Positions 19,743-63,776 of a stretch of 64,000 nt of DNA are shown in pieces. Under the pieces are notes generated by a model. The model saw only the letters and a program-made list of their open reading frames with translations. It searched no databases and was not told where the DNA came from. The stretch is from an uncultured Flavobacteriales bacterium (GTDB lineage: Bacteria; Bacteroidota; Bacteroidia; Palsa-965), in the NCBI GenBank assembly GCA_903873905.1, contig CAIQQJ010000097.1:1-64000 (forward strand). The letters run 5' to 3'. The translations under genes and the position numbers were made by a program. Each line of letters begins with the position of its first letter. Within the stretch, counting starts at the first letter, position 1.

Positions 19743-19751
19743 AACGATTTC

Positions 19752-19818
19752 AAATTAGGGATTAAGGATTAAAAATTAAGGATGTGAAATATCATTTTTG
19801 ATTTTTAATCCTTTTTTA
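19752..19818 (+). repeat. Period-7 inverted array acting as a likely terminator
   Basis: Heptamers AAATTAG, GGATTAA, GGATTAA, AAATTAA and GGATGTG (19752-19786) face an inverted arm at 19793-19811. Sixteen of 19 positions pair, and a T-run follows at 19812, so the fold could terminate the upstream gene. Confidence 0.65.
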
Positions 19819-19833
19819 TTTACAGAAATTTCT

Positions 19834-44789: not shown

Positions 44790-47700
44790 TTAGTACCCCA
44801 AATTCGGAGCCAACCATCTTTCCGCTTCTACAATATTCATCCCTTTTCGTTTCGCGTAATCCTGAACTTGATCATTCGAGATTTTTCCCAAACCAAAATA
44901 TTGTGAATTTTTATGAGAAAAATACAAACCACTCACAGCAGCTGTTGGCATCATTGCAAAACTTTCTGTCAATGTAATTCCTGTGTTCTTTTCAACTTCG
45001 AACAAATCGAATTGCAAACGTTTTTCCGTGTGCTCTGGACATGCAGGATAACCTTGCGCAGGACGAATGCCCACATATTCCTCACGAACTATTTGGTCGC
45101 TCGACAATTTTTCATCTTTAGCATAACCCCAATATTCCTTGCGCACCATTTCATGCATGTGTTCCGCAAATGCTTCTGCAAGACGATCTGCAATTGCTTT
45201 TAACATGATCGCAGAATAATCATCGTGATTTTTTTCAAACTCGGCCACTTTTTCATCAATGCCAAATCCTGTAGAAACTGCAAATCCTCCAATGTAATCG
45301 GCTTGGCCTTTTGGTGAAATGAAATCCGCAAGCGCCAGATTCGGTTGTCCTGCCGGTTTTTGCGTTTGTTGACGAAGTGTATGTAAAACTGTTTTTACTT
45401 TTGACCGCGAATCATTTTCATAAACTTCAATATCATCATCGTTAATGGTATTCGCTGGATAAAAACCGATAACCGCATTTGCACGCAACCACTTTTCAGC
45501 AATAATTTTCTTCAACATATCTTGAGCATCATCTAACAATTTTTTCGCCTCAGCACCACGTATTGCATCAGACAGAATTTTCGGATACGAACCTTTCATT
45601 TCCCAAGAATGGAAAAATGGTGTCCAATCGATATAAGGCAGGAGCTTCTCCAATGAATAATCGGTAAAAACTTTATTTCCGAGAAAAGATGGTTTTACCA
45701 AATGTGCCGCATCCCAATCTATATCCAATTTATTGTTGCGTGCATCTGTCAACGGAATGAATTTATTTTGTCCTTGGGCATTTCTATTTTGCTCACGGAC
45801 TTTTTCATATTCCATATTCAAATTATCCATAAAAGGCCCGCGCCATTCATCCGAAATCAAACTGCTTGCAACAGGAACGGATTTGCTCGCATCATTCACA
45901 TGCACAACGGGACCTGAATAATTCTGCGCGATTTTCACGGCAGTATGAACACGGGAAGTTGTAGCTCCTCCAATCATCAATGGGATTTTGAAATTCAAGC
46001 GTTCCATTTCTTTTGCGACATGAACCATTTCATCCAAGGAAGGTGTGATCAATCCGCTCAAGCCAATTACATCCACATTGTGTTCTTTAGCCGCTGCAAG
46101 AATTTTCTCACAGGAAACCATCACACCCAAATCGATGATTTCATAATTGTTGCATGCTAATACAACTCCAACAATGTTTTTCCCAATGTCATGCACATCA
46201 CCTTTGACAGTCGCCATTAATATTTTTCCAGCGTTCGTTCTTCCGTTGCCCACAATTCCAGCTAATTTATTAGCATCCTTTTCAGCCTGTAAATAGGGTT
46301 CAAGATAGGCCACAGCCTTTTTCATGACACGCGCACTCTTCACGACTTGCGGCAAAAACATTTTTCCACTTCCGAACAAATCACCAACAATATTCATTCC
46401 CGCCATCAATGGTCCTTCAATCACATGCAATGGGCGACCCAATTTCACTCTAGCTTCCTCCGTATCCGAGTCAATATGATCCACAATTCCCTTTACCAAA
46501 GCATGGCTCAATCGCTCTTCAACGGTTCCTCTTCTCCACTCTTCATCCTTTTCAGTTTTCACATTCGAAACACCTTTTAATGTTTCAGCATGATTCACCA
46601 ATCGTTCCGTTGCATCATCTCTTCTGTTCAGCAAAACATCTTCCACTAATTCCAATAAATCTTTTGGAATATCATCATACACTTGCAACTGAGATGGATT
46701 AACAATTCCCATATCCATTCCGGCCTTTACGGCATGATATAAAAATGCACCATGAATTGCTTCACGCATTACATCGTTTCCACGAAAAGAAAAAGAAACA
46801 TTACTCACACCGCCACTCACTTTTGCCAATGGGAGATTTTCCTTGATCCATTTTGTAGCATTGAAAAAATCAAGCGCATTCAAACGATGTTCTTCCATTC
46901 CCGTGGCGACAGGAAAAATATTGGGATCGAAAATAATATCCTGTGGCGGGAAATGAACTTTGTTGATCAGAATATCATAGGCGCGTTTGCAAATATCTTT
47001 TCTGCGTTGCAAAGTATCCGCTTGCCCAACTTCATCAAAAGCCATGACAATAACAGCGGCACCATATTGCTTTACCTTGTTTGCGTAATAAATAAATTTC
47101 GCTTCGCCTTCTTTCAACGAAATGGAATTCACAATTGCTTTTCCTTGTACACATTTCAATCCCGCTTCAATAACAGTCCATTTGGAAGAATCGATCATGA
47201 TTGGAACACGCGCAATATCCGGTTCAGCAGCAATGAGATTCAGGAATTTTGTCATGGACGCTTCACTGTCCAACATTCCCTCATCCATATTCACATCAAT
47301 CACTTGCGCACCACCTTCCACTTGTTCTTTCGCAATGGAAAGTGCTTCATCAAAATTTCCTTCCTTAATTAATCGAAGAAATTTTTTCGACCCCGTTACA
47401 TTTGTTCGTTCACCAACATTCATGAAATTTGATTCTGGACGAAGCGTTACGGGTTCAAGTCCGCTCAAATGCATCATGGTATCGGCAACTGGTTTTTTTC
47501 TAGGTTTTGCTTTCTTTGCCAATTCCGAAATTCTGGCAATGTGCGAAGGAGTTGTTCCGCAACATCCGCCAACGATATTCAAAAATCCAGCTTTTAAAAA
47601 ATCTTCAATCTGATGGCCCATTTCATGCGCATCCTGATCATATTCACCAAACTGATTTGGCAAACCTGCGTTAGGATAAGCACTAACATAAAAAGGCGCT

Positions 47701-48470
47701 TTCACAGAAAGCTCTTCGAGATAAGGACGCATTTCTTTTGCACCCAAGGCACAATTCAATCCCACGCTCAACAAATCAACATGCGAAACAGAATTTAAAA
47801 ATGCTTCTGTCGTTTGTCCTGATAAAATTCTTCCACTTGCATCCGTAATCGTTCCCGAAATCATTACGGGGATTTTCAGATTATTTTTCTCACAATAATT
47901 TTGTGTTGCAAACAAAGCAGCTTTTGCATTGAGCGTATCGGTAATCGTTTCGAACAAGAGTAAATCAACACCACCTTCAATCAATCCTGCAATTTGTTCG
48001 GAATATGCTTCCACCAGCTCATCAAACGTAACAGATCGAAATCCAGGATCATTTACGTTTGGTGACATGGAAGATAATTTTGTTGTCGGACCAACAGCAC
48101 CAGCAACAAATTTCGGAGTAGTTCCTCCGAATTCTTTCACAGCTTCTTTCGCAACTTTGGCGGCGGCAAAATTCAATTCATAAGCAAGACTTCCCATGTG
48201 ATAATCTGCCAATGAAATGGTTTGTGCATTGAACGTATTGGTTTCAATGATATCAGCGCCAGCCGACAAATATTCCTTGTGAATGTCTTTTATAATTTGT
48301 GGTTGTGTAAGCACAAGCAAATCATTATTCCCTTTCAGATCATGGGGCCAATTCGCAAAACGTTCACCGCGATAATCCGCTTCCGCAAGTTTATAGCGTT
48401 GAATCATCGTGCCCATCGCACCATCAATGACCAAAATTCTTTTTTCTAACTCTTCTCTGATATTTGCCAT
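44790..48470 (-). CDS. metH: Cobalamin-dependent methionine synthase
   Basis: Transfers a methyl group from methyltetrahydrofolate to homocysteine via B12. The 1226-aa product is full length: homocysteine domain (1-330) with the zinc cysteines in VGLNCALG and [10 protein letters not shown]; pterin domain (about 340-620, [11 protein letters not shown]); B12 cap and Rossmann domain (about 640-890) with [13 protein letters not shown] carrying the cobalt-ligating His; and the AdoMet-binding reactivation domain (about 900-1226, [15 protein letters not shown]). It is the second gene behind the SAM-I riboswitch, after a methyltransferase and a 41-base gap made of a CTCTGCG-type repeat. Confidence 0.97.
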
Positions 48471-48511: not shown

Positions 48512-49267
48512 TTATAATTTTCCGTAATAAACAATCGTATCATATTCAAATCGCACCAAGCCATTCTCTTGGTAGCGCATGAATATTTTTTTCAAAACAT
48601 ATTCCATGAAGGCACTATCAGGATGATCCTCTGCGGGAACATAAGAAGAGGAAAATAATCTTCCTTTTAATCCCTCAAAAGTGAAATCCTGAAAATTCTC
48701 CACACTGAAATGATTCCACTTTTTAATTCCGAAAAACGAATCGAAATTTTTCTCATCAATATTTTTGTGACTCACATTTTTATAATCCGTTCCAAAATAA
48801 TTCAGAAGATCTTCATACGATTTCAAAAAATCTGTAGCATCCATTCTTCTATCATTCCACATCAACACAACATTTCCGTTCGGTTTCAAAATGCGTTGGA
48901 ATTCCAATTTCGATTTCTCAGCATTAAACCAATGAAATGCCTGTCCAGCAAGAACAAGGTCAATGGAATTGTCTTTTAAATTCGTTTCTTCCGCAGTTCC
49001 ATTCACACTATGAAAACGAGTTTCATTCCTCAGAAATTCTTCTGCCGCTTCACGCATTTCAGTATTCGGCTCTACACCAAAAACATCATATCCGTTTTCC
49101 AAAAATAATTTTGAAGAAATTCCTGTTCCGGAACCAATATCAGCTACAACAGAATTTTCAGCAAGTACTCCAACATCACGCAAACGCACCAAGACATCAC
49201 TTGGATATGTCGGACGATACTTCACGTAATTTTCAACGCGGTTTGAAAAACGTTCTGTTGTGTTCAT
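48512..49267 (-). CDS. Class I SAM-dependent methyltransferase
   Basis: The 251-aa product has the seven-strand methyltransferase fold: motif I VADIGSGTGISSKLFLENGY, VEPNTEMREAAEE and DLVLAGQAFHWFN. A longer frame begins at 49288, but its first seven residues are translated from the riboswitch terminator, so the ATG at 49267 is the start. It is the first gene behind the SAM-I riboswitch and precedes metH. Substrate unknown; a role in SAM or sulfur metabolism is an inference from the regulation. Confidence 0.85.
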   Translation of the reverse strand: MNTTERFSNRVENYVKYRPTYPSDVLVRLRDVGVLAENSVVADIGSGTGISSKLFLENGYDVFGVEPNTEMREAAEEFLRNETRFHSVNGTAEETNLKDNSIDLVLAGQAFHWFNAEKSKLEFQRILKPNGNVVLMWNDRRMDATDFLKSYEDLLNYFGTDYKNVSHKNIDEKNFDSFFGIKKWNHFSVENFQDFTFEGLKGRLFSSSYVPAEDHPDSAFMEYVLKKIFMRYQENGLVRFEYDTIVYYGKL

Positions 49268-49277
49268 GCCTAAAATA

Positions 49278-49317
49278 AAAAATCCCATCTGCTATATCAG
49301 AAGGGATCGGGATTTTT
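49278..49317 (-). terminator. Expression-platform terminator of the SAM-I riboswitch
   Basis: On the minus strand AAAAATCCC (49309-49317) pairs with GGGATTTTT (49278-49286), with an inner CTG/CAG helix, and the T-run continues toward the start codon. It ends 10 bases before the methyltransferase start. Confidence 0.8.
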
Positions 49318-49337
49318 ATTGAAGATCAAACCTCTGA

Positions 49338-49526
49338 CTTATTTCTCCCCGAATCCTAACAATGCTGTTGGGACGGGATACGAGTTGGCACCTTCTTCGA
49401 TAGTGCTTGGTTCGGAGTTTGGAGTTCGTAGATTGTAATATCTCCGAACCAAAAACTAAAAACTCGTCACTAAATCAGGGTTGCCAAGGCTTCAAAGGGC
49501 GCAATCCCTCAGCCTTTCTGAATAAG
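49338..49526 (-). promoter_or_regulatory. SAM-I riboswitch with an expanded P3 arm
   Basis: Minus-strand landmarks of the S-box aptamer: P1 CTTATT (49521-49526) with AATAAG (49338-49343); AGAAAGGCTGAGGGA and GCCCTTTGAAGCC around 49483-49517; the invariant GGCAACC at 49490-49496 region; and GGTGCCAA at 49385-49392. The aptamer is about 189 nt instead of the usual 100-120 because its P3 arm contains an inverted pair of period-7 arrays (49409-49469). SAM binding should favour the downstream terminator and reduce methyltransferase and metH expression. Confidence 0.9.
49409..49469 (-). repeat. Period-7 inverted pair inside the riboswitch P3 arm
   Basis: Left units GGTTCGG, AGTTTGG, AGTTCGT, AGATTGT; right units CTCCGAA, CCAAAAA, CTAAAAA, CTCGTCA. 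Most positions pair across a short loop near 49437-49441. Confidence 0.75.
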
Positions 49527-49547
49527 TTGAATTTTAAAGAACCGCGA

Positions 49548-50647: not shown

Positions 50648-50660
50648 CGGTATTGTTTTT

Positions 50661-50745
50661 GGTATCGGGTATCAAATATCTGGTATCTGGTATTCAACAC
50701 ACAATATTACTTTTTTTGTACCTGATACTTGATACCCGATACCTT
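50661..50745 (-). repeat. Period-7 inverted pair between the SCO and DUF420 genes
   Basis: Left arm units GGTATCG, GGTATCA, AATATCT, GGTATCT, GGTATTC (50661-50695); right arm GTACCTG, ATACTTG, ATACCCG, ATACCTT (50718-50745), ending one base before the SCO stop codon. Confidence 0.8.
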
Positions 50746-50746
50746 T

Positions 50747-59785: not shown

Positions 59786-60751
59786 TTAAACTTCGCGCAA
59801 AACATGATGACCGGAAAGTTCTTCATCAAAAAATGGTCTCACTTCATTATAAACACTTTGAATTCCCACTTCCAGTGAAATCCTATGGCGCCAACCGAGA
59901 TAATGAATTTTGGTAACATCAGACAATTTCCTTGGAGTTCCATCGGGATGTGTTGTATTGAAACGCAACTCTCCTTTAAATCCAACAATTTTTTTGATCA
60001 ACAAGGCTAGATCACCAATACTGATATCCACACCAGTTCCAATATTCGTGAATCCTGGGTCATCAATATTCAACATCACGAACACGCAAGCATCAGCCAT
60101 GTCATCAACATGACAAAATTCGCGTAATGGTTTTCCTGTCCCCCATACTTCTACAAATTCCGAATTACTTGCTTTTGCATTGTGAATTTTGCGTAACAAG
60201 GCTGGAAGTACGTGTGAATTTTTCAGATCGTAATTATCATGCGGCCCATACAAATTTGTTGGCATGACAGAAACAAAATTGCATCCGTATTGTGCGCGAT
60301 AGGCGTCACACATTTTGATTCCTGTAATTTTCGCAATTGCATAAGGTTCATTTGTTGGTTCAAGCGTTCCTGTTAAAAGATATTCTTCCTTCAATGGCTG
60401 CGGTGCATGTTTCGGATAAATGCAGGTCGAACCGAGAAACAATAATTTCTGAACCTTGTTTTCATAGGAGGAATGAATGACATTCGTCTGAATCATCAGA
60501 TTGTCATAAAGAAATTCGCCTCGATAGGTATTGTTGGCGTGAATCCCTCCCACTTTCGCTGCACACAGAAAAACATAATCCGGTTTTTCGTTCGCAAAGA
60601 AATCCGAAACTGCTTTCTGATTTCTTAAATCCAATTCTTCAGAAGTGCGCGTAATGATATTCTTGAAACCTCTTTTCGCAAGATTTCTAATGATGGCTGA
60701 ACCCGCCATTCCACGGTGACCTGCAATGTATATTTTTGAAGAGATTTCCAT
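59786..60751 (-). CDS. fcl: GDP-L-fucose synthase
   Basis: Epimerase-reductase that converts GDP-4-keto-6-deoxymannose to GDP-L-fucose using NADPH. The 321-aa product has GHRGMAGSAIIRNL (cofactor loop), the GSTCIYPKHAPQPL catalytic segment with Ser, the YAIAK YxxxK motif, and LREFCHVDDMADACV. It follows gmd, separated by an AT-rich period-7 hairpin. Confidence 0.95.
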   Translation of the reverse strand: MEISSKIYIAGHRGMAGSAIIRNLAKRGFKNIITRTSEELDLRNQKAVSDFFANEKPDYVFLCAAKVGGIHANNTYRGEFLYDNLMIQTNVIHSSYENKVQKLLFLGSTCIYPKHAPQPLKEEYLLTGTLEPTNEPYAIAKITGIKMCDAYRAQYGCNFVSVMPTNLYGPHDNYDLKNSHVLPALLRKIHNAKASNSEFVEVWGTGKPLREFCHVDDMADACVFVMLNIDDPGFTNIGTGVDISIGDLALLIKKIVGFKGELRFNTTHPDGTPRKLSDVTKIHYLGWRHRISLEVGIQSVYNEVRPFFDEELSGHHVLREV

Positions 60752-60762
60752 TTAAAAAATAA

Positions 60763-60830
60763 TTTTGAATTTTGAGTTATGAATTTGAATAAAAAAAAGG
60801 CAATTCAAAATTTAGAATTTAGAATTCAAA
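60763..60830 (-). repeat. Period-7 inverted pair between gmd and fcl
   Basis: Left units TTTTGAA, TTTTGAG, TTATGAA, TTTGAAT; right units ATTCAAA, ATTTAGA, ATTTAGA, ATTCAAA. On the minus strand the second arm is followed by a T-run, so it may attenuate transcription. Confidence 0.8.
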
Positions 60831-60834
60831 ATTA

Positions 60835-61923
60835 TTACTCATGAAATTTATTTACAGAATGTCCTCCTTCAATAAGATATTTATCACGTTGGAATATTTT
60901 CAAGTCAGAAGCAACCATTTCCTTCACGAGTTCTTCCACAGTGTGCGTTGGTTCCCATCCAAGAATTCTTTTTGCCTTTGATGCATCGCCAACCAATAAA
61001 TCAACTTCTGCTGGACGGAAATATTCCTTGTCCACTTGCACCATTATTTTTCCAGTTGCTTTGTCTATTCCTTTCTCATCAATTCCTTTTCCCTGCCATT
61101 CCAATGTAATTCCTACTTCACGAAAAGCCCATTCTACAAAAGTTCGAACTGCTATTTTTTTGCCGGTTGCCAAAACAAAATCATCTGGAACATCTTGCTG
61201 CAACATTCTCCACATTCCTTCCACATAATCTTTCGCATGACCCCAATCGCGTTCTGCATCGAGATTTCCCAAGTAAAGATTTTCTTGCAATCCCAATTTT
61301 ATTCTTGCAGCAGCACGTGTAATTTTTCTTGTGACAAATGTTTCTCCACGAATTGGACTTTCGTGATTGAATAAAATTCCATTACAAGCAAACATTCCAT
61401 AAGCTTCCCGATAATTTTTCACAATCCAGAAGGCATATAATTTCGCAACACCATAAGGACTTCTCGGATAAAAAGGAGTTGTTTCCTTTTGTGGAACTTC
61501 TTGTACCAATCCGAATAATTCAGAAGTGGAGGCTTGATAGAATTTGGTTTTCTTTTCTGTTCCAAGAATACGAATTGCCTCAAGCAAACGTAATGCGCCA
61601 AGTCCATCTGCATTCGCTGTATACTCTGGCGTATCAAAAGAAACTTTTACATGCGACATGGCCGCCAAATTATAAATTTCATCAGGCTTTACTTCCTGCA
61701 CAATGCGAATGAGATTTGTTGAATCTGTCAAATCGCCGTGATGTAAAAAAAATGGACGACCTTTTTCATGTTGGTCATGATAAAGATGATCAATACGCTG
61801 CGTATTAAAAAGTGAACTGCGACGTTTCACACCATGAACGACGTAGCCTTTGTCGAGCAACAATTCTGCAAGATAAGCTCCATCTTGTCCGGTAATTCCA
61901 GTAATCAATGCGACTTTTGACAT
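60835..61923 (-). CDS. gmd: GDP-mannose 4,6-dehydratase
   Basis: First committed step to GDP-L-fucose. The 362-aa product has [38 protein letters not shown], the STSELFG segment, YGVAKLYA (YxxxK) and [16 protein letters not shown], all diagnostic. A TTG at 61929 would add two residues; the ATG at 61923 is preferred. Co-directional with fcl. Confidence 0.96.
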
Positions 61924-61948: not shown

Positions 61949-62755
61949 TTACTTAGATTTTTTTGCCTCTACCAGAAACCAATTATTTCTCAATTCCTCA
62001 CGGTTGTATACAAATGCTTTTTGAGAAGGCCATTCAACAAACGTTCCTCCCGCCTGCTCAACGATGACTTGTCCAGCAGCAGTATCCCATTCCATTGTTG
62101 GGGCGAAACGCGGATATACATGTGCTTTACCTTCCGCAATAAGACAAAATTTTAATGAACTTCCTGCAGCCACAAAATCCACTTCACTGAATTTCTTACG
62201 TTGCTCTTCAACAAACGCATCTGTTTCAGGTGATGCATGTGAGCGAGAACCGACAATCGTGAAAGTGGCAGGAGGTAGTTGTAGCGGTAATTGTTTTGCC
62301 AATGCAAAAAAATCTTCAGGAGATTTTATTTCGGAAGCTTTGTCAATACGAAATGATCCGATTCCTTCCGCTGCGAAGTGCAAAACATCTTGAACAGGTG
62401 TATAAATTACGCCCAAAATAGGATGGCCTTTTTCTGCTAGAGCAATATTCACAGTGAATTCCCCATTGCGTTTGATGAATTCTTTTGTTCCATCTAGTGG
62501 ATCAACAATCCAACATTTGTCCCAAGTTTTTCTTGTAGAGAAATCATGCGTGCGAGAATCTTCTTCGCTCAGCATGGGAATATTTGTGGTGGAAAGGTAT
62601 TTGTCAATAATATCATTTGATGCGCGATCAGCATGCGTAAGGGGTGTGCTGTCGTCTTTATATTCTACTTCAATCGCAGCAAGTTTATAAACATTGAGAA
62701 TTGCTTTTCCTGCTTCTATTGATGCGCTGATTGTAAGTTGAAGTAATTCTTTCAT
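61949..62755 (-). CDS. cysQ: 3'(2'),5'-bisphosphate nucleotidase
   Basis: Removes the 3' phosphate from PAP (adenosine 3',5'-bisphosphate), recycling the by-product of sulfate activation; Li-sensitive family. The 268-aa product has the metal-binding motifs SEEDS, WIVDPLDGTKEFIKRNGEFT and WDTAAGQVIVEQAGG of the inositol monophosphatase fold. The KEFIK version of motif 2 is typical of CysQ rather than inositol monophosphatase. Confidence 0.93.
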   Translation of the reverse strand: MKELLQLTISASIEAGKAILNVYKLAAIEVEYKDDSTPLTHADRASNDIIDKYLSTTNIPMLSEEDSRTHDFSTRKTWDKCWIVDPLDGTKEFIKRNGEFTVNIALAEKGHPILGVIYTPVQDVLHFAAEGIGSFRIDKASEIKSPEDFFALAKQLPLQLPPATFTIVGSRSHASPETDAFVEEQRKKFSEVDFVAAGSSLKFCLIAEGKAHVYPRFAPTMEWDTAAGQVIVEQAGGTFVEWPSQKAFVYNREELRNNWFLVEAKKSK

Positions 62756-62767
62756 AATTCAAGTGTG

Positions 62768-62890
62768 GCAAGTGGCAAGTGACAAGTGACAAGTGGCAAG
62801 TGACAAGTGGCAAATGTTCCCTTTTTCATGTTTTTTTATTGAATCAATTTTCGTTTTCAGATTTTATCACTTGTCACCTGTCACTTGCCA
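62768..62890 (-). repeat. Largest period-7 inverted pair, between the aldehyde dehydrogenase and cysQ genes
   Basis: Left arm: seven consecutive units of GCAAGTG/ACAAGTG type (62768-62816). Right arm: CTTGTCA, CCTGTCA, CTTGCCA (62870-62890), with the next unit running into the aldehyde dehydrogenase stop codon (62895-62897). The loop is about 53 bases. Confidence 0.85.
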
Positions 62891-62894
62891 CTTT

Positions 62895-63776
62895 TCAATA
62901 TTTTGCGCCACCAACACCAATGTTTTCAATTGGATGCCAAGTTGTTTTTATTTCCTGTGTATCAAAAATGAAATACGGATTTTGTGATTCCGTTTTATTC
63001 CAATTGTTCTGATAAACAAAAACGCGTTTCACATTCAATGTTGCATTTTCTTTTACCAATTTAATTTCTTTTTGATCTTTTCCTCCGTAAACAAGAGCAT
63101 TCACATCCTTATGTGAACTCATGTGGGAAATCAATTCGGAAGTTTTTCCCGTAATGATATTTACAACTCCAGCTGGCACATCAGACGTTGCAAGAACTTC
63201 ACCGAAAGTGATGGAACACAATGGCATTTTTTCTGAAGCCAAAGCAATACAAACATTTCCTCCAGCAATGATCGGTGCGATAAGAGAAACTAATCCTATC
63301 AAGGAAGAATCTTGAGGTGCAACAATTGCCACAACTCCTGTAGGTTCAGGAACAGAAAAATTAAAATGCGATGAGGCAACAGGATTTACGCTGGAAAAAA
63401 TCTGTTGAAATTTATCACACCATCCTGCGTAATAAACCAAACGATCAATCGAAAGTTCAACTTCCTTTTTCGCATCAGCTTTATTTCCGCCTTGCAAAAT
63501 AATTTCTTCAATGAATTCCGATTTTCTTTTTTCCAACATCTCTGCGATGCGATATAAAATCTGCGAACGATTATAAGCAGTTCTTCCACCCCAAGAATTG
63601 AATGCTCCACGAGCAGAAACAACCGCATTGCGAAAATCTTTTCTTGACCCAAGACAAACATCAGCAATAACATTTTTCTTTTTATCCAATAATGGATAAT
63701 AGCGGCCCGACTCCGTACGTGGAAACTGTCCACCGATGTAGAGTTTGTAGGTTTTTAATATTTCTATTCTTGACAT
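62895..63776 (-). CDS. Truncated aldehyde dehydrogenase family protein
   Basis: The 293-aa product matches the N-terminal NAD-binding half of an aldehyde dehydrogenase (KLYIGGQFPRTESGRYY, NAVVSARGAFNSWGG, PEPTGVVAIVAPQDSSLIGL, IAGGNVCIALASEKMPL, DVPAGVVNIITG). Beyond about 235 it diverges, and the catalytic half with the active-site Cys (GQxC) is missing. It follows a second aldehyde dehydrogenase gene, so the short protein may pair with it as a non-catalytic subunit, or be a stable remnant. It is not visibly frameshifted. Confidence 0.75.
   Translation of the reverse strand: MSRIEILKTYKLYIGGQFPRTESGRYYPLLDKKKNVIADVCLGSRKDFRNAVVSARGAFNSWGGRTAYNRSQILYRIAEMLEKRKSEFIEEIILQGGNKADAKKEVELSIDRLVYYAGWCDKFQQIFSSVNPVASSHFNFSVPEPTGVVAIVAPQDSSLIGLVSLIAPIIAGGNVCIALASEKMPLCSITFGEVLATSDVPAGVVNIITGKTSELISHMSSHKDVNALVYGGKDQKEIKLVKENATLNVKRVFVYQNNWNKTESQNPYFIFDTQEIKTTWHPIENIGVGGAKY

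Follow-up and report, generated by a model that had tools for sequence, protein, structure and literature searches.

A SAM-I riboswitch of a Flavobacteriales bacterium with a heptad-repeat hairpin of a dispersed family in its P3 arm

We found that the P3 arm of the SAM-I riboswitch (RF00162) in the window, the whole 64-kb stretch of DNA analyzed here, is enlarged by a predicted hairpin of degenerate heptads, and that this hairpin belongs to a palindromic family dispersed in the same genome. Based on its sequence, the feature is confirmed as a genuine SAM-I riboswitch with the array in P3. Its SAM-I identity, the placement of the insert in P3, the period of 7, the predicted pairing, the dispersed family, the recurrence of such arms, and their presence or absence in relatives were all computed. 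P3 is recurrently occupied by heptad hairpins across Bacteroidia, which goes beyond what the original prediction for this locus had claimed. We regard it as probable that P3 is a tolerated landing site where heptad hairpins repeatedly arrive and turn over, each with its own helix, which spares the aptamer core.

The riboswitch and its P3 insert

SAM-I riboswitches fold as four helices, P1 to P4, around SAM, and the tip of P3 points away from the ligand pocket. Using cmscan, we obtained a single Rfam match within the window, SAM-I, with 59.5 bits compared to a cut-off of 44.4 and covering the full model (1-108). The genome contains one copy. The following features are referred to below:

49336-49528, reverse strand: SAM-I aptamer, P1 to P4 (cmscan, full model)
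49393-49478, reverse strand: P3 interior, 86 nt, between GGCAACC (49479-49485) and GGUGCCA (49386-49392) (cmscan alignment; period and fold tests)
49400-49474, no strand assigned: heptad palindrome, one copy of the KAGTNNN hairpin family (model R3, built without this copy, end to end)
49344-49385, reverse strand: P4 region, beyond model length, without heptad array (cmscan alignment; sequence)
49277-49308, reverse strand: probable terminator, AUCCC..CUG..CAG..GGGAU and a T-tract, likely the expression platform (conserved in L148)
48512-49267, reverse strand: class I methyltransferase gene, downstream of the riboswitch (Pfam Methyltransf_11, E = 1e-18)
44790-48470, reverse strand: metH, B12-dependent methionine synthase (Pfam Met_synt_B12, S-methyl_trans, Pterin_bind, B12-binding)
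50648-50746, no strand assigned: GGTATC-type heptad hairpin filling the DUF420/SCO1-like gap (L148 comparison)

The cmscan alignment places the insert between the P3 strands GGCAACC and GGUGCCA, the conserved core of P3, which is canonical in this copy, and counts 78 inserted nt in P3. The original prediction had put the riboswitch at 49338-49526, which is correct to within 2 nt, and would have been given up for a score below threshold or an array outside P3; the score lies above the threshold and the array inside P3. The enlargement of P3 was borne out as well, while the estimate of about 60 extra bases was too low, the figure being nearer 65-75 nt when measured against short relatives, which mostly have 10-30 nt. 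P3 had also been called the one variable arm. This does not hold, as P4 exceeds the model length by 20 inserted nt in the same alignment.

In the P3 interior, identical bases were counted 72 times at lags of 7 and 14, compared to 38.5 ± 5.3 in shuffled sequences, and none of 20,000 shuffles scored as high. A single degenerate heptad family makes up both arms. The 5' arm, read along the RNA, consists of TAGTGAC, GAGTTTT, TAGTTTT, TGGTTCG and GAGATAT; the 3' arm corresponds to TAGTGCT, TGGTTCG, GAGTTTG, GAGTTCG and TAGATTG in inverse complement. The predicted fold of the insert has an energy of -22.0 kcal/mol; shuffled versions average -13.3 ± 2.9 kcal/mol (z -3.0), and 4 of 500 reached an energy as low as this. 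When the aptamer core was forced in folding, the minimum energy was still -59.7. In addition, we exchanged arms between species for 45 P3 inserts; the mean energy was -19.8 kcal/mol with an insert's own arms and -9.7 kcal/mol with those of other species. The folding energies and arm swaps thus support, at the level of prediction, the earlier proposal that the heptamers pair across the arm. An intact aptamer core had likewise been proposed, in agreement with the full-model match and with a core-forced fold that costs no energy.

Might the periodicity be an assembly artefact, or have come about by chance, given that the arm is variable and rich in A+T? The lengths of P3 and P4 do vary in SAM-I riboswitches, and the sequences stem from draft MAGs. 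However, the shuffles described above, comparable arms found across dozens of separate assemblies, and the strong enrichment of period 7 alone among P3 inserts and of period 7 in the genome (both below) make such an origin extremely improbable. Chance or low complexity as such was ruled out by the shuffles and by the other periods.

P3 in relatives

Relatives were represented by 80 named metH loci from public MAGs, chosen by MetH alone, and were searched with R1, a covariance model of SAM-I built from short relatives. R1 identified a riboswitch at 69 of the 80 loci, and P3 was parsed in 64. Variant P3 cores are common at metH loci, which is why a first regular-expression search had missed most of the SAM-I riboswitches there. 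In many relatives, for example L157, L176 and L199, the P3 core reads ACCAACC/GGTGGGA or CCCAACC/GGTGGTA; compared to GGCAACC/GGTGCCA, this is a covarying G-C to C-G swap adjoining the ligand pocket.

The comparison of P3 lengths, which had been proposed together with the original prediction, revealed recurrent long arms and a bimodal distribution among metH-linked riboswitches, in which P3 is either short or 69-105 nt long. Long arms were present in 37 of the 64, and 34 of these 37 measure 73-93 nt. Among P3 inserts of at least 55 nt from all sources, a pool that includes genomes fetched because of a long SAM-I, 41 of 52 showed significant period 7, compared to 0 to 4 for the other tested periods. 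The units vary by lineage, e.g. GGAGATT in G003, AAAGTTT in G007 and AAGTCAA in L186. The arrays in the P3 arms of L226, L179 and L206, upstream of metH, look like period 8.

Both states of P3 occur within the genus: G001, G005 and G006 have a short arm; G000, G002 and G003 have a long one with period 7, and G004 has a long one that has decayed. On the MetH tree, the distribution of long and short P3 needs at least 14 changes. P3 is long throughout one MetH clade, in each of its 26 parsed members, with differing units. In the same tree, MetH of this genome and of L148/G004 stands apart from MetH of other genomes assigned to the genus; a broad genus would explain this, as would horizontal metH transfer.

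Inserts are replaced where the flanking aptamer is 96-98% identical. The aptamer flanks of L156 and L157, whose MetH proteins are 4% apart, are 98% identical, and their inserts align at 0.69 versus 0.59 when shuffled. For L169 and L157, the inserts align no better than shuffled sequences do; those of L166 and L169, which are more distant, share 93%. Not every case is an intact hairpin. G212 carries a one-sided array without an inverted partner, and the P3 array of G004/L148 is decayed, its arms no longer matching, with the other aptamer parts and the downstream terminator conserved.

The bimodal lengths also bear on a reading in which a long P3 is itself selected: a helix of ~80-90 nt would aid co-transcriptional folding or switch timing, and the heptads would be mere material. 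The narrow range of the 34 metH-linked arms, the uniformly long clade with its differing units, and arms that stay matched according to the arm swaps are in line with this. On the other hand, P3 is short in many close relatives, and family hairpins lying free between genes are similar in size, so that P3 may owe its length to the element. We consider selection for length rather unlikely as the main explanation; it is compatible with P3 as a landing site.

A dispersed hairpin family in the genome

Strong period-7 arrays were found 25 times in 231 kb of the genome and not once in the Markov control. In 1.51 Mb, we counted 170 period-7 arrays compared to 8 in the control, and period 8 ranked next with 63 compared to 8. 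When the threshold was lowered slightly for the 231-kb sample, 43 arrays were obtained, of which 34 fall outside predicted genes, a fraction that makes up 8.6% of the sequence. An antiparallel partner within 150 nt was present for 79 of 153 strong arrays, versus 10 in a reversed control, and approximately half of the arrays are therefore hairpins. Inverted heptad arrays between genes were also observed at 62751-62827 with 62855-62905, at 60750-60845 and at 19743-19820, with the units GTGGCAA, GAATTTT and AAGGATT. In G006, which belongs to the same genus and has a short P3, no strong period-7 array was found in 60 kb (L069-L071); hence, closely related species may differ sharply in how many arrays they carry.

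With up to two mismatches, the 17-mer TTCGGAGTTTGGAGTTC from P3 occurs at 19 places in the 3.93 Mb of the genome, and its reversed control at none. Many of these places share a common build with the P3 insert: KAGTNNN heptads, GGAGA, a loop, TCTCC, and inverse heptads. A covariance model of eight copies yielded 64 strand matches in the genome, which by our own count correspond to about 35 distinct places, 27 of them outside the eight-copy model; the same model had no matches in G001, G002, G005, G006 and G008. The copies are ~72-117 bp long and comprise a KAGTNNN heptad arm, a loop and the inverse complement, with variable starts (TTAG, GTAG, ATAG, AAAG or GAAG).

A further model, R3, was built from 21 other family copies with the P3 copy left out. 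It matched the P3 insert over its entire length (60.2 bits, E = 1.2e-11, 1-83 of 83) and nothing else in the window, the 21 copies being a set that is not fully independent, since family copies were first collected with P3-derived sequence. The alignment of the P3 insert with these 21 copies runs from end to end and includes the arms, the order of the units and the GGAGA/TCTCC beside the loop. R3 also matched the P3 arms of L188, L158, L210, L190, L178 and L193 (E below 0.001). Sharing of 12-mers between the P3 insert and a local genome sample was 78 versus 13 for the reversed sequence in G007; it was uninformative in G000 (171 versus 205 reversed) and likewise in G002. The original description of the insert as a mobile or slippage-generated repeat is directly supported by its membership in a dispersed palindromic family of the same genome and by close relatives that differ in P3 and conserve the other aptamer parts. 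No transposase or transposon was linked to the family copies, and no target duplication was defined; E. coli RayT gave no tblastn match in 1.51 of the 3.93 Mb (38%).

In the neighborhood of the riboswitch, the hairpin at 50648-50746 fills a gap the orthologue of which measures 4 nt in L148, the closest relative by MetH. As the hairpin is missing from there as a whole, such hairpins come or go as units; the divergence from L148 is too high to define a junction.

These observations weigh on an alternative in which nothing moved in and the array expanded in place, by slippage on the P3 hairpin and copying between its arms, with the same process acting at many hairpins. Slippage is a published idea for the abundance of heptamers (PMC4679880, PMC4692102), and in-place expansion would fit the different units of different lineages, the one-sided array of G212, and the arms with an apparent period of 8. 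It is at odds with the features that the P3 insert shares with 21 copies, which amount to more than one unit, and with the loss or gain of a whole hairpin at the neighboring gap. We therefore judge it to be distinctly unlikely, even somewhat more so than selection for length, and prefer arrival of whole hairpins at P3.

Downstream genes and expression platform

The riboswitch lies upstream of genes for methionine or SAM metabolism, a methyltransferase gene followed by metH. A simple promoter and terminator scan found nothing; the probable terminator at 49277-49308 is missed by such a scan because of its internal loop. Its stem and T-tract are kept in L148 despite differing flanking sequence. 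The methyltransferase gene is located between terminator and metH in this genome, and metH directly follows the terminator in L148, so that the methyltransferase gene was gained or lost inside the riboswitch-controlled unit.

Other structured RNAs

Further classes of structured RNA were compared as well. Significant period 7 was present in 1 of 13 cobalamin riboswitches and in 1 of 22 RNase P RNAs, both in G012. The cobalamin riboswitch of G012 (L118:1501-1850) contains a long heptad hairpin with GTTTCGA repeats against CCCAAAA repeats, which is also matched by R3, and its RNase P RNA (L126) has an inverted GCAGTAT-type array in one arm. None of 28 TPP riboswitches had significant period 7, and they were rejected as a further site. 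By genome, the comparison of SAM-I with TPP gave 7 of 42 versus 0 of 29 (Fisher p = 0.04).

A model for the heptad arm

According to the explanation that we favor, a palindrome copy of the dispersed family occupies the tip of the P3 helix. Since the repeat is itself an inverted one, it would extend P3 as a helix, with P1, P2 and the binding core unchanged. Whole hairpins may arrive by transposition-like copying or gene conversion, and arrival would be followed by heptad slippage and then decay. SAM sensing would be little affected, so that the RNA presumably still switches, with control via the hairpin and T-tract at 49308-49277 before the methyltransferase gene and metH.

A broader interpretation is conceivable, but we hold it to be doubtful: a new class of mobile heptad palindromes in Bacteroidota, the units of which are rewritten quickly with period and symmetry fixed, might enter hairpin tips of structured RNAs preferentially, SAM-I P3 many times and in G012 also the cobalamin riboswitch and, more weakly, RNase P RNA.

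With a natural series of more than 40 riboswitches, a single arm of which was rebuilt time and again from differing repeats, it becomes directly measurable how far a folded RNA tolerates insertions. In addition, the conserved aptamer flanks fix orthology, and heptad turnover can thus be traced, with whole-hairpin replacement, slippage and decay separable. The results also tie intergenic heptad arrays to transcribed hairpins.

Comparison with known systems

Our literature search, which covered few subscription journals, found no report of heptad repeats in a riboswitch. A related case is the group I intron of tRNA-Leu(UAA) in Nostoc, in which the P6b stem-loop consists of degenerate heptanucleotide repeats pairing across the stem; its length varies by repeats, and two unrelated motifs, TDNGATT and NNTGAGT, replace one another between lineages (PMC4476775). 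As with P6b, the structured RNA described here has a variable stem composed of 7-nt repeats with predicted pairing across it, as seen from period, fold and arm swaps. In contrast to that self-splicing cyanobacterial intron with its two motif classes, the host is a riboswitch arm of Bacteroidota with many unit families, one of which is dispersed in the same genome.

Vioque (1997) reportedly described STRR heptamer repeats in the RNase P RNA genes of heterocyst-forming cyanobacteria. Judging by the title of that work, short tandem heptamers from a class spread through the genome lie within the gene of a structured RNA in both cases, which differ in the RNA and the phylum.

Intergenic heptamer repeats are represented by TAACTGA (PMC4679880) and by GGGNATC in Xanthomonas and Nostoc (PMC4692102), and heptamers are reported, in work cited by these two papers, to be the commonest longer simple repeats in many bacterial genomes. 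The arrays described here resemble them in their period of 7, their mostly intergenic position, and a unit number that varies between close relatives. However, TAACTGA and GGGNATC are fixed units in direct repeats, whereas degenerate units in inverted pairs are found here. REP elements measure 20-40 bp and are tagged with GTAG or CGTC, those with GTAG being accompanied by RAYT transposases (PMC3733652). The family shares with REPs that it consists of dispersed intergenic palindromes, possibly transcribed as RNA hairpins, but its copies of 72-117 bp are heptad-built and have no constant tag, which sets them outside the REP definition by size and tag. Finally, the riboswitch itself resembles other SAM-I (S-box) riboswitches of RF00162 in its aptamer core, its helices and its place before methionine genes, and is distinguished from them by an 86-nt P3 arm built from heptads.
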